Origin: Geomonas sp. RF6
GTDB taxonomy: Bacteria; Desulfobacterota; Desulfuromonadia; Geobacterales; Geobacteraceae
Length of the DNA: 64,000 nucleotides
Direction of reading: 5' to 3'
Assembly (NCBI RefSeq): GCF_021044625.1
Contig: NZ_CP087999.1
Span: forward strand, 2,832,001-2,896,000
The position numbers were made by a program, and so were the translations under genes. Of this stretch, positions 3,914 to 47,437 are shown piece after piece. The first letter of the stretch is position 1. Every line of letters starts with the position of its first letter. A model generated the notes under the pieces. The model saw only the letters and a program-made list of their open reading frames with translations, had not been told where the DNA came from and did no database searches.

Positions 3914-3921
3914 TGAAGCAA

Positions 3922-4013
3922 TGTAGGCCGGAATAAGCGAAGCGTTTCCGGCAAATCCAGGCCGATTTTCGGCTGCGCCGACGCCGGGAACGCCTGCTTA
4001 TCCCGCCCTGCAG
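3922..4013. repeat. REP/BIME-like element copy A
   Basis: Two inverted palindromic units: the first begins TGTAGGCCGGAATAAGC and carries GCGTTTCCGGCA; the second reads GCCGGGAACGCCTGCTTATCC and ends in a degenerate CCGCCCTGCA. This matches the copies at 28907, 34397 and 38884. It lies directly behind the glutaredoxin-like gene, the usual place for REP sequences. Confidence 0.8.
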
Positions 4014-6094: not shown

Positions 6095-6215
6095 TACCCT
6101 CGCTCTCCCTCCCTCCCTCCGTTGTGACTCTACTCTCCCTCTCTCTCACCACCTCTCCCGCCCCGGATGCTGGGAAAACTGGAGCAGGCAGCAAAGAGCA
6201 AATCCCCCCTGCCCC

Positions 6216-7522
6216 CAGCGTTGTCCGGTTAGGTTCTTGCTCTCTGAAATCTTTGATATTGCTGTACTTTTTGCTTGACATCTGTTGAAGGGTGGCGCGC
6301 GCCGCGTTCGTAACTACGTAATTCGGGAGTGGTTACGACATGCGTCCCTTCAGCAGACAAAAGCCTCAGAATCCTTATGAATTTAATAGACTTCTCGACC
6401 CAGTAAAGAGATCATGCACCCCTGTTTCTCCACTTACATCGAGAGGTTACCGACCGTTGCAACTGTCATTCGACGATCAGCTAAAGGCCCTTGTCTACTA
6501 CCATCTCCAGGAATTCTCTTCTGGAAGAGAACTGATCCAGGCCCTGGAACAGGACAATTTCGCCAAGGAATGTGTTGCGCCACCTAAAGGCGTTAAAAAA
6601 TCCGCCTTTTTTGAGGCTATCAACACACGTGGACTCGAACAACTCACTGAAATCTTTGGAGCACTGGCGAAAGAGGCTCGCAAAGTCATTCCCGCCCAAC
6701 ACGCAGAACTTGGCAACCTTGTTGGCATCGATGGATCTGTCATCGACGCTTTGATGTCCATGGATTGGGCGCAGTACTCAAGCACTCACAATAAAGCCAA
6801 AGCCCACGTAGGCCTTGATCTGAACCGTGGTGTGCCGACGAGTGTGGTCGTGACTGACGCTAACCAGGTGGAGCGGCAGTATGTAGACCGTATCCTCCAG
6901 CCTGGCGAAACTGCTGTCCTTGATCGAGGGTACCAATGCAACGCCGACTTCGATCAGTGGCAAGAAGACGGCAAACTCTTTATCTGCCGCATCCAGCAGA
7001 GAGCCAGAAAGAAGGTCGTCCGTCAAAATCCTCTTCCGCACAGTGACATCGTCTTTTATGACGCCATCGTTATTCTGGGCAAGAAGGGGCTCACTGAAGG
7101 GCAGAAAGAGCTCCGAGTAGTTGGCTATCGCGTTGACCGAAAGGAATACTGGGTTGCGACAAACCGCTATGACCTTACCGCTGAACAGGTGGCCGAAGCA
7201 TACAAACTACGTTGGAACATAGAGACCTTCTTTGGCTGGTGGAAACGATACCTCAACGTCTACCACTTAATCGCCAGAAGCCAGTATGGCATGATGGTGC
7301 AGGTCCTCAGTGGACTTATCACTTACCTTCTCCTGGCCATTTACTGCCAAGAACAGCATAACGAGCGGGTGAGCATCAATCGTGTCAGAGAGCTAAGAAA
7401 CAAAATCGCTAGTGAAGCTGCTGGAATGGCAGCTGAAGCCTCTAGACTGCGAAAAAATGAGGCCAAAAAAAACCGAAAAAAGCAGAAACGACGCAAAGCA
7501 AAAACCTAACCGGACAACGCTG
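6216..7522 (+). mobile_element. Complete IS4-family insertion sequence
   Basis: About 1307 bp. Terminal inverted repeats are perfect over 20 bp (left 6216-6235, beginning CAGCGTTGTCC; right 7503-7522), extending to about 25 bp with one mismatch. A 9 bp direct repeat, CCCTGCCCC, flanks the element at 6207-6215 and 7523-7531 and is best read as the target duplication. It encodes one intact DDE transposase whose stop codon lies inside the right inverted repeat. The target is a solo arm of the dispersed repeat element described at 9219-9585. Base composition is lower in GC than the surrounding genes. Confidence 0.92.
6340..7509 (+). CDS. IS4-family DDE transposase
   Basis: 389 residues, intact. 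Catalytic triad by position: D131 (GIDGS), D205 (VLDRGY) and E305. The E lies in the exact IS4 signature Y-x2-R-x3-E-x6-K: Y298, R301, E305, K312 in YKLRWNIETFFGWWK. The C-terminus is very basic (KKNRKKQKRRKAK). ATG 6340 has a GGAG 9 bases upstream. The TAA at 7507-7509 is inside the right inverted repeat, so the coding region fills the element to its end. No frameshift or truncation; the element could be active. Confidence 0.95.
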   Translation: MRPFSRQKPQNPYEFNRLLDPVKRSCTPVSPLTSRGYRPLQLSFDDQLKALVYYHLQEFSSGRELIQALEQDNFAKECVAPPKGVKKSAFFEAINTRGLEQLTEIFGALAKEARKVIPAQHAELGNLVGIDGSVIDALMSMDWAQYSSTHNKAKAHVGLDLNRGVPTSVVVTDANQVERQYVDRILQPGETAVLDRGYQCNADFDQWQEDGKLFICRIQQRARKKVVRQNPLPHSDIVFYDAIVILGKKGLTEGQKELRVVGYRVDRKEYWVATNRYDLTAEQVAEAYKLRWNIETFFGWWKRYLNVYHLIARSQYGMMVQVLSGLITYLLLAIYCQEQHNERVSINRVRELRNKIASEAAGMAAEASRLRKNEAKKNRKKQKRRKAKT

Positions 7523-7605
7523 CCCTGCCCCCCCTTCGCAAAGGGGGGAACGTTAGGCCGTCTGCAGTGCTTCGTGGCAATGTACCCACGCTCCCCCGGA
7601 ATCCC
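7523..7605. repeat. Solo repeat arm interrupted by the IS4 element
   Basis: Joining 6198-6215 with the sequence after one target-site copy recreates the right arm of the 370 bp element: CAAATCCCCCCTGCCCC, then the stem CCCCTTCGCAAAGGGG, then GAACGTTAGGCC and GTGGCAATGTACCCACG. The arm ends about 25 bp before the stop codon of cbiO. Confidence 0.8.
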
Positions 7606-7627
7606 CAGATCGTCCAGAATGGCACCT

Positions 7628-9192: not shown

Positions 9193-9218
9193 CTTCCCTC
9201 CGCACAAAAAAGGCTCAC

Positions 9219-9585
9219 AGGGGAATTACCCGGGAAGCCGTATATGTTTCGACGAAGCGCCGCACGAGGCCTCGCGTCCCCCCCTTTGCGAAGGGGGGAC
9301 AGGGGGGATTTGACTTGGCCAGGATCCTGCTATGTGCGTAAATGCTGTGGTCTCAAGCAGTTCTTTGATTCATGCTTGCAGAAAACTGGTGGGGCCTATG
9401 TCGCTGATCTTTAGACTGCCGCAGAACAGGGGTTCGACGACCGAGATGTACTGCTAAACGGGCTGCGGTTCTAGAAGTGACTTGAAGATCAAATCCCTCC
9501 TGCCCCCCCTTCGCAAAGGGGGGAACGTTAGGCCTTCTGCAGTGCTTCGTGGCAATGTACCCACGCTTCCCCGGAATTCTCGGAT
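9219..9585. repeat. MITE-like 370 bp inverted-repeat element, copy 1
   Basis: Two roughly 100 bp arms in inverted orientation enclose a core of about 160 bp. Each arm contains a GGGGAAGC-type end, a hairpin with stem CCCCCCTT/AAGGGGGG and a GATTTGA inner border. The core shares long blocks with copy 2 at 46959-47327: CTGTGGTCTCAAGCA, ACTGGTGG, GCCTATGTCG, TGATCTTTAGA and CGAGATGTACTG. No reading frame in it resembles a protein. It sits between cbiQ and cbiM and fills most of 9193-9673. Confidence 0.85.
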
Positions 9586-9673
9586 GAGCCTTTCGCAAAG
9601 GGGGGGACGAGATAGCCTCGCATCCTGTTAAAAAGTTTTCGCAGCGGCGTCCCCTTCTCAACGATCGCGCTCC

Positions 9674-14091: not shown

Positions 14092-14199
14092 GCGTCCCCT
14101 CCCTTTCAAGGGGAGGGACAGGGTGGGGATGGGGTTGTAGCTGGTGACGGCACCGACCCCATCCCCCTCCTGTCCTCCCCCTTGAAAGGGGAGGGACGC
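14092..14199. repeat. Imperfect 108 bp palindrome
   Basis: Two arms of about 44 bp, one starting GCGTCCCCTCCC and the other ending GGGAGGGACGC, are inverted around a loop of about 20 bp. Each arm also contains its own small hairpin (CCCTTTCAAGGGG / CCCCTTGAAAGGGG). It lies between cheX and fumarase, which converge, so it may also block transcription from both sides. The rest of 13989-14314 holds nothing I can name. Confidence 0.75.
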
Positions 14200-28273: not shown

Positions 28274-28572
28274 GAACCCCGCCTGTCGGGAATTTAAAAT
28301 CAAACCACTCTATACGAAAGGAGCAGGGAATTCAAGGGTGCCCCCGGCGGTGGCGGGCCCACGAGAGTCACGGGCGGCGCAGCTTTGGTTTTGAATTCGG
28401 TGGGAATAGTGAATCAGGCGGGCCACGCCTGATCGGAGGGTGGACAGTGCGGTGGGTTCAGCTGCCACCTTCTGATCTGCTGGCACCTTCCCCCCCCCTG
28501 GCCCTCCCCCGCAAGGGGGGAGGGAAGGTTCCGGTTGTTACGCTGCTCGGGATGGAGGTGAAGGGAGCAGCG
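28274..28572. other. Intergenic region with GC-rich hairpin
   Basis: At about 28486-28535 the sequence CCTTCCCCCCCC...CCCCCGCAAGGGGGGAGGGAAGG folds into a strong hairpin. Nothing else is recognisable. Confidence 0.5.
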
Positions 28573-28906: not shown

Positions 28907-29253
28907 GCACCGGCGCTGCCGGAAACGCTACGCTTATTCCGGCCTACATTGTCAGCGCGCCCGCGTCCGTCCCGTTCAGGCCAGAGACAGTCTCGTCCAT
29001 GTAGGCCGGGATAAGCCGGCAGGCGTTCCCGGCAGTCCACGGCAGACGCAGCCGCGCACCGGCGCATGCCGGAAACGCTGCCGCTTATTCCGGCCTACAT
29101 TGTCAGCGCGCCCGCGTCCGTCCCGTTCAAGGCCAGAGACAGTCTCGTCCAGGTAGGCCGGGATAAGCCGGCAGGCGTTCCCGGCAGTCCACGGCAGACG
29201 CAGTCGCGCACCGGCGCATGCCGGAAACGCTACCGCTTATTCCGGCCTACGTG
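28907..29253. repeat. REP/BIME-like tandem array copy B
   Basis: About 2.3 copies of a 149-152 bp unit starting at 28907, 29056 and 29208. Each unit contains one inverted REP pair: TGCCGGAAACGCT..CGCTTATTCCGGCCTACA, a spacer (TGTCAGCGCGCCCGCGTCC...), then GTAGGCCGGGATAAGCCGGCAGGCGTTCCCGGCA. The copies differ at only a few sites. The array fills most of 28777-29321; nothing else is seen there. Confidence 0.88.
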
Positions 29254-29265
29254 GACCGCAGAAAT

Positions 29266-34370: not shown

Positions 34371-34396
34371 CGCGGTGCGGCAGCGGAGATGTGACA

Positions 34397-34484
34397 TGTA
34401 GGCCGGGATAAGCGGAGCGTTTCCGGCAATCCGTTGGAGGGCAGGCACCGCCGCCGGGAACCCCTGCGGCGTATCCCGGCCGAC
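34397..34484. repeat. REP/BIME-like element copy C
   Basis: TGTAGGCCGGGATAAGC with GCGTTTCCGGCA, spacer, then CCGCCGGGAACCCCTGCGGCGTATCCCGGCC. It lies 26 bp behind the GspE/PilB gene. The rest of 34371-34730 holds the msrA promoter. Confidence 0.8.
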
Positions 34485-38883: not shown

Positions 38884-38977
38884 TGTAGGCCGGGATAAGC
38901 CTCCGGCGTTCCCGGCAGATCCGGCGGCCCTTTTGCTGCCGGCGCTGCCGGAAACGCTTCGCTTATTCCGGCCTACA
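38884..38977. repeat. REP/BIME-like element copy D
   Basis: Starts TGTAGGCCGGGATAAGCC and ends GCTTATTCCGGCCTACA, two complete inverted REP units with GTTCCCGGCA and TGCCGGAAACGC inside. It lies between two converging genes (tolC-like and the flavodoxin-like reductase) and is the cleanest copy. Confidence 0.88.
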
Positions 38978-38999
38978 TTTTTCTCTCTCTGATTCCTCT

Positions 39000-46908: not shown

Positions 46909-46958
46909 CACTGTAGAAGAGAGTGAAGGCGACGCAGAAGGCGGAAGGAGATAGGCTC

Positions 46959-47327
46959 ATCCGGAATTTCGGGGAAGCCGTCTCATGTTCCAATGAAGAG
47001 CCGCACGAGGCCTCGCGTCCCCCCCTTTGCGAAGGGGGGACAGGGGGGATTTGACTTGGCCAGCCCCATCCTTCAGCAGTCGCAACTGCTGTGGTCTCAA
47101 GCAATTTCTGCGATTCCACTTTGCAAAAAACTGGTGGTGCCTATGTCGTTGATCTTTAGAGTGCCGCAGCACTGCGCTTCGGCGCCCGAGATGTACTGTT
47201 AAACGGGCTGGTTCTGGAGGAGACTTGAAGATCAAATCCCCCCTGCCCCCCCTTCGCAAAGGGGGGAACGTCAGGCCTTCTGCAGTGCTTCGTGGCAATG
47301 TACCCACGGTCCCCGGAATTCCCGGAT
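46959..47327. repeat. MITE-like 370 bp inverted-repeat element, copy 2
   Basis: Same layout as copy 1. Ends ATCCGGAATTTCGGGGAAGC on the left and the inverted ATCCGGGAATTCCGGGG on the right. Both inner hairpins (CCCCCCTTTGCGAAGGGGGG and its mirror) and the core blocks listed for copy 1 are present. It fills most of 46909-47507, between mlaC and leuB. Confidence 0.87.
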
Positions 47328-47437
47328 AATCAGGATATATTCCCCGCCTTCTGGCTCTCTCGGCATCTCGCCCCCGCTCACCCGCCGGCCCCCCGCTTCC
47401 TGCAGAACTCTCCCCTTCGTTTACAGATCCTTTTTTA

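Follow-up and report, generated by a model that had tools for sequence, protein, structure and literature searches.

A multicopy palindrome-flanked element of Geomonas sp. RF6 is a non-autonomous deletion derivative of a unit in which a DUF559 gene lies between inverted hairpin arms

REP and REPIN sequences are short palindromes, often arranged as inverted pairs in tens to hundreds of copies, that flank the gene of an enzyme, RAYT (TnpA-REP), a tyrosine HUH/Y1 transposase, with non-autonomous copies in excess. The MITEs of classical insertion sequences have terminal inverted repeats, arise by internal deletion of a longer coding element and reach high copy number. A third group, the EDxHD homing endonucleases such as I-Bth0305I, together with Vsr, has a conserved D, E-x-D-G and H. 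A superfamily of REPs with a CGTC tag was reported without a dedicated transposase in the accessible text of Di Nocera (2013; PMC3733652), and the accessible parts of the work of Aklujkar on Geobacter genomes describe palindromic multicopy nucleotide sequences, some of them with inverted ends (PMC2996986, PMC2700814). For experimentally evolved Legionella pneumophila, the available portion of a report describes a repeated segment with a transposase and DUF559 as a mutational and recombination hotspot (PMC12308824).

We analysed a 64,000-nucleotide stretch of the Geomonas sp. RF6 genome (hereafter the window; contig NZ_CP087999.1, forward-strand positions 2,832,001 to 2,896,000), which contains two copies of an arm-core-arm element, and no known family fits all of the features tested. 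The element has the features of the REP/REPIN systems named above, but the enzyme here is a Vsr/EDxHD-type nuclease, and the arms lack the GTAG tag and have CGTC/CGTT in its place, with no common tag in 173 hairpins elsewhere. The arms are also absent from the six Y1 transposase loci of the same genome (none within 1.5 kb), and RAYT was therefore rejected as the mover. The EDxHD endonucleases and Vsr are related in sequence, fold and conserved residues to the DUF559 protein described below, although the DUF559 gene is flanked by inverted palindromic arms and accompanied by multi-copy deletion derivatives. All three MITE features are present, whereas no known transposase is encoded by the parent, no short target-site duplication of fixed length was shown, and the long hairpin arms occur in tandem arrays as well. 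Unlike in a DDE insertion sequence, the gene between the arms of the four intact units is DUF559; the DDE gene of the window (6340-7509) belongs to an insertion sequence (IS) inserted in an arm. Several stems in this genome follow CGTC as in the CGTC-tagged REPs, an assignment made attractive by the reported lack of a transposase there, but by a simple count of GTC/CGT ends this tag was found in 5 of 173 hairpins across phyla, and because the tag is not conserved, the assignment to that family was rejected. The Geobacter multicopy sequences are likewise palindromic repeat families, seemingly of the same bacterial family, and the arm family itself may be among them, although the accessible parts of those reports link no gene to the repeats. 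The Legionella segment similarly places DUF559 in a repeated recombination hotspot, but it is described with a transposase, and the available text mentions no palindromic arms. The literature covered on DUF559 or Vsr-like proteins and repeats, with few subscription papers and no preprints and partly as excerpts, contained no report of palindromic arms; one candidate paper (PMC9927313) was set aside since its accessible text concerns DUF5590.

The two copies of the element, placed at 9219-9585 and 46959-47327 by the first-pass annotation, aligned over their whole length, with long inverted arms and a common core, and the limits were refined to 9214-9590 and 46956-47328 (forward strand, as for all features below unless stated otherwise). 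Copy 1, flanked by ORFs that match cbiM and cbiQ, consists of a left arm (9214-9313), with a hairpin at about 9276-9300 and then a second G-run at 9302-9307, a core (9337-9476) that is a DUF559 gene remnant with internal deletions, and a right arm (9490-9590), which continues into an extra partial arm (9589-9625). This copy is situated within an apparent cobalt-transport operon (cbiM-cbiQ-ABC), in which no gene is broken. Copy 2 lies between ORFs matching MlaC and isocitrate/isopropylmalate dehydrogenase. Its left arm (46956-47053; hairpin at about 47017-47041) and right arm (47232-47328) enclose a remnant of the N-terminal half of the DUF559 gene (47082-47176) and one of its C-terminal part (47178-47224), for which the window coordinates were transferred from the F1 consensus defined below, and the gene stretch with the predicted catalytic residues is deleted between the two. 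The arms of copy 1 pair as inverted repeats over 105 nt (74%) and those of copy 2 over 67 nt (82%), and each arm was confirmed to have its own hairpin. In the arm, the core side of the hairpin CCCCCC-TTTGCGAA-GGGGGG adjoins ACA (or GCA), then a second G-run and ATTTG, and the outer part terminates near CCCGGAATTCCCGGATGAA.

The solo arms that had been reported at about 1490-1545 and at 6198-6215 with 7523-7606 are real. The former is a partial arm (1488-1545), and the latter two pieces are one single arm (6196-7606) split by an IS at about 6217-7521, whose 389-aa transposase ORF matches DDE_Tnp_1. The end of this IS also adjoins an arm G-run at two other loci (L030 and L040), and because this arrangement is found in three places, the IS seems to prefer arm palindromes as targets. 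The window further contains a solo arm of the CCCTCCCC-GGGGAGGG type on the reverse strand (28486-28530) and an inverted pair of arms, 20 nt apart, of a second arm family (14092-14199), the one that flanks another DUF559 gene of this genome, L174.

The element is abundant in the genome, which is one contig of 5.26 Mb. Scoring of 40 of 251 candidate regions gave at least 41 core-bearing copies at E ≤ 1e-69, and a recount by genome place among the loci fetched gave at least 46 distinct copies, whose identity to the consensus has a median of 90%; the core conservation seen between the two copies of the window thus extends to further copies across the genome. The arm hairpin CCTTYGCRAAGG occurred 347 times, against 9 times for the reversed control, which is far above chance, and the arms often extend outwards as tandem units of about 81 bp (hairpin spacing, 80-81 bp). 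When 277 genomes of the class, this one included, were searched with the core at about three candidates scored per genome, matches of 26-49 bp were obtained in three other genomes, and two 26-bp matches (L082 and L083) were rejected, both being within unrelated sequence. A DNA search of plasmids with the core and a search of a named genome collection with a 21-base core pattern gave no match. The core seems private to this genome. Arm matches were found in 31 of 58 genomes, including this one, and one of these genomes (G012) had 21 arm matches and no DUF559 match.

The origin of the core was recognised only through the third of these weak core matches, the locus L081 in a relative; short core pieces gave no match in Pfam. 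At L081, an intact reading frame lies between the same arms as those of the element, and its product is a DUF559 protein (PF04480; Pfam, E 4e-34). Intact arm-DUF559-arm units with these arms were also found at L144 and L148 in relatives, and one, L175, is present in the genome of the element itself; DUF559 is the sole gene between the arms of all four. One of the relatives holding L144 and L148 has a broken second locus (L143), and two core-motif matches in relatives (L145 and L147) had neither arms nor DUF559. The F1 consensus, composed of the inner arm and the common core, matched the L148 unit colinearly. Positions 1-21 matched unit positions 1-21, positions 40-133 corresponded to 85-194 (69%, E 3e-9) and positions 136-183 to 299-347 (78%, E 6e-6), where the E-values refer to a very small search. 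The stretch with the predicted catalytic residues, present in L175, was found in none of 41 copies. The core is the DUF559 gene minus its predicted catalytic centre, and the first-pass statement that it encodes nothing recognisable is corrected accordingly. The loss of this predicted catalytic centre through internal deletions makes the element a MITE-like and non-autonomous derivative of the arm-DUF559-arm unit, as its terminal inverted repeats, its copy number and its colinearity with the longer coding unit L175 bear out. In place of the transposase with matching ends that the first-pass annotation proposed to look for, L175 has a Vsr-like nuclease gene between the same arms. Other cores between the same arms (the second core of L010, L092/L103, L094/L100, L095, L096 and L112) match other parts of the DUF559 gene in other combinations, and of about seven deletion derivatives, F1 is therefore the one that has multiplied.

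At the C-terminus of the L175 protein, the DUF559 frame continues into the arm, from which an annotated tail such as NPPCPPFAKGG is predicted, and tails of this kind in databases may be read-through into arm repeats.

The parent protein is predicted from its fold and conserved residues to be an EDxHD/Vsr-like endonuclease. D51, E62, D64, G65 and H68 were invariant in 41 aligned sequences, and a catalytic role is ascribed to them from the family. A sequence search of the PDB matched 3hrl at E 5e-38 and 3r3p, the homing endonuclease I-Bth0305I, at E 3.5e-4; matches to toxin B subunits (E 0.4-1) were treated as noise. The fold was predicted with a pLDDT of 88, and a fold search with this structure returned 3hrl and 3r3p and then, more weakly, Vsr 1vsr (E 0.017). 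The NCBIfam Vsr model also matched with E 4e-4, yet far below the family cut-off. A DUF559 gene was assigned to the EDxHD homing family in a 2022 paper, according to its accessible part (PMC9403480). The Caulobacter DUF559 protein VsrA was reported, in the available text, to be responsible for the SOS response in cells without the methylase ScmA (PMC12907096), and fusions of DUF559 domains to methyltransferases are known from an excerpt of another report (PMC1829167).

The genome has two further DUF559 genes. L174 is intact and has its own arm family, GCGTCCCCTCCCTTTCAAGGGGAGGGACAGGGTGGGGATGGGGT, whose hairpin occurred 117 times with at most two mismatches, against 0 for a control pattern, while L175 carries the arms of the element studied here. 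Each DUF559 gene thus has its own repeat family, with the exception of the third gene, L173, around which no strong inverted arms were detected (score 21).

Within the class, 143 of 271 genomes carry DUF559, and the same arrangement recurs there. In a first test with 33 loci, three from this genome and 30 from the class, seven of which had truncated flanks, inverted arms scoring at least 30 within 450 bp were found at 19, against 0 of 33 windows further out; 37 of 99 pairs with partners swapped between loci also reached this score. In a uniform 300-bp test, for which 18 of the 30 class loci had full flanks and 18 of 24 loci of the control family DUF433 were used (six being omitted for length), a score of at least 28 was obtained for 15 of 18 DUF559 loci and 1 of 18 control loci. 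The test was extended to other phyla with the best 80 of 562 candidates from the named genome collection, many of them metagenome-assembled contigs and not a random sample, and 77 were usable after three had been dropped for short flanks. Arms scored at least 28 at 58 of these loci and at least 34 at 51, against 4 and 0 of 190 far windows, respectively, while 19 loci scored below 28. Swapped partners reached the two thresholds in 163 and 95 of 385 pairs, because the arms resemble each other across phyla. The loci scoring at least 28 include Desulfuromonadales, gamma-, beta- and alphaproteobacteria, Nitrospirae, Chloroflexi, Spirochaetota, Armatimonadetes, Gastranaerophilales and WOR-3, although a few of the 58 (L229 and L265) resemble long inverted duplications and not typical arms.

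In many of the 77 loci, the arms were only tens of bases from the DUF559 domain. A separate hairpin test detected C-to-G hairpins on both sides of 53 of the 77 loci and in none of 123 far pairs. Of 173 hairpins, 92 had a second G-rich half on the side facing the gene and 30 had the opposite orientation; 57 of the 77 loci had this gene-facing half on at least one side and 28 on both. These results show that DUF559 genes of several phyla often lie between similar inverted arms, each with a C-rich/G-rich hairpin, and that a second G-rich half often follows this hairpin towards the gene. On plasmids, for which 49 records matched, 10 of 15 loci examined scored at least 28, one of which (L344) is not a true arm match, and L350 is weak.

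With regard to the insertion sites, a perfect target-site duplication of 3-6, 8 or 9 bp was detected in none of the 20 copies with findable ends, of the 41. A 12-bp hairpin apex was duplicated in 4 of these 20 copies, against 0.052 in permutations, and among 9 copies with an apex-like 12-mer on each side, the two 12-mers were the identical variant in 4, where 1.56 were expected (P 0.022). Several copies were located inside another arm. Neither a clean empty site nor a movement was observed, and in a comparison of two relatives of about 96% identity, intergenic arms were gained, lost or swapped without a tidy duplication or clean joints. In the stretches compared between the relatives G030 and G199 (L299-L312), at about 96% identity, some intergenic gaps hold different palindrome families at the same spot, a pattern that suggests a fast turnover of the palindrome repeats. 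L144 and L148 represent one DUF559 locus, at which L148 has an additional 81-bp arm unit between direct hairpin repeats; it could equally be a gain in L148 or a loss in L144 by slippage.

The explanation that we favour, and to which we give a fairly good chance, is that the element is a gutted derivative of a mobile unit of hairpin arm, DUF559 gene and inverted arm, and that such derivatives spread in trans. The Vsr/I-Bth0305I-like nuclease would nick or cut extruded arm hairpins and similar hairpins elsewhere, and the units would then spread through repair, in which another arm-flanked unit is copied from or inserted, while the gutted copies would depend on the intact enzyme acting in trans. 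New insertions at the apices of arm hairpins already present would account for the 81-bp tandem arms, as well as the 12-bp CC(N8)GG repeats that flank some copies on both sides. A hint of such apex insertion is given by the copies inside another arm and by the identical 12-mer variants. The deleted form has been amplified, and the arm-DUF559-arm unit is probably mobile; we infer that DUF559 drives the movement. It could also be a passenger; the Legionella segment holds a transposase besides DUF559, and methyltransferase fusions of DUF559 are known. The main rival explanation treats the arms as a repeat family in their own right and DUF559 as a free-standing homing endonuclease that targets pairs of arms and homes by gene conversion, the deleted cores being old homing sites minus the gene. 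The proximity of DUF559 in sequence and fold to 3hrl and I-Bth0305I, its published placement in the EDxHD homing family, the lack of a clean target-site duplication and the in-place arm swaps between close relatives are all in line with homing, and this explanation overlaps with the favoured one, from which it differs mainly in the colonisation of new sites. However, the copies sharing the deleted core are at scattered sites, with arms and core acting as one unit, and therefore the deleted form itself spreads. We consider homing an unlikely account of the element.

It is more doubtful still that the arms or units are moved in trans by an unrelated transposase, for example of the Y1/RAYT or DDE type, with DUF559 as cargo. 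Many MITEs are mobilised in trans, and this genome has six Y1 transposase genes. The chance of this explanation is also raised by the repeated Legionella segment, in which DUF559 accompanies a transposase. Conversely, the arms are missing from the Y1 loci, no gene other than DUF559 lies between the arms of the four intact units, and the arms are in many of the 77 loci very close to the DUF559 domain. The first-pass annotation had raised yet another explanation, a MITE with a structured RNA gene as its core. In favour of it, divergence within the element is lowest in the right half of the core (mean 0.061, against 0.098-0.170 in the arms). Differences by codon position among the copies were weak and did not decide. 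However, three core sequences folded no better than their shuffles (z 0.08, 0.49 and 0.46), and Rfam at gathering cut-offs matched only tRNAs in the window and nothing over the element, with one chance-level match around copy 1 (E 0.86). The core moreover descends colinearly from the DUF559 gene. The structured-RNA explanation was rejected from the folding and Rfam results, and we regard it as extremely improbable.

Beyond this genome, the recurrence of a gene between hairpins points to a little-noticed kind of mobile DNA, whose novelty depends on the role that we infer for DUF559. In its widest form, the proposal makes DUF559 the enzyme behind a class of mobile DNA that extends across bacteria, a nuclease-driven counterpart of RAYT/REP, with the common C-rich/G-rich palindromes of many phyla as the ends of its units and the remnants of their deletion. 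The stem of this putative class is CCC(T)CTCCCC - loop - GGGGAG(A)GGG, frequently accompanied by a second G-half. We consider the chances for and against this proposal to be evenly balanced. DUF559 is a widespread family of unknown role, and we know of no driver for the abundant G-rich palindromic repeats of this kind; if the proposal is true, it would provide a function for the family, an origin for the repeats and a new type of enzyme for mobile DNA. The link between DUF559 and the hairpins is directly testable with one small protein and one hairpin.

Other palindrome-associated repeats were also observed. At three loci (L093, L099 and L101), another repeat (AATTCAGCCCGGTCGCTTCCGTTGACGTGAGGGGACAC...) with CCGGGAATTCCGGG-like ends is located inside the arm hairpin, and it may be a further family that uses this hairpin as a target. 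The window itself contains a GTAG-type REP, TGTAGGCCGGGATAAGCC...GGCGTTCCCGGC, as a cluster at 28910-29260 and as single copies at 3919-3954, 34396-34429 and 38939-38979. It is very similar to the REP of E. coli, and these repeats are possibly linked to the Y1 transposases of the genome and not to the DUF559 arms.
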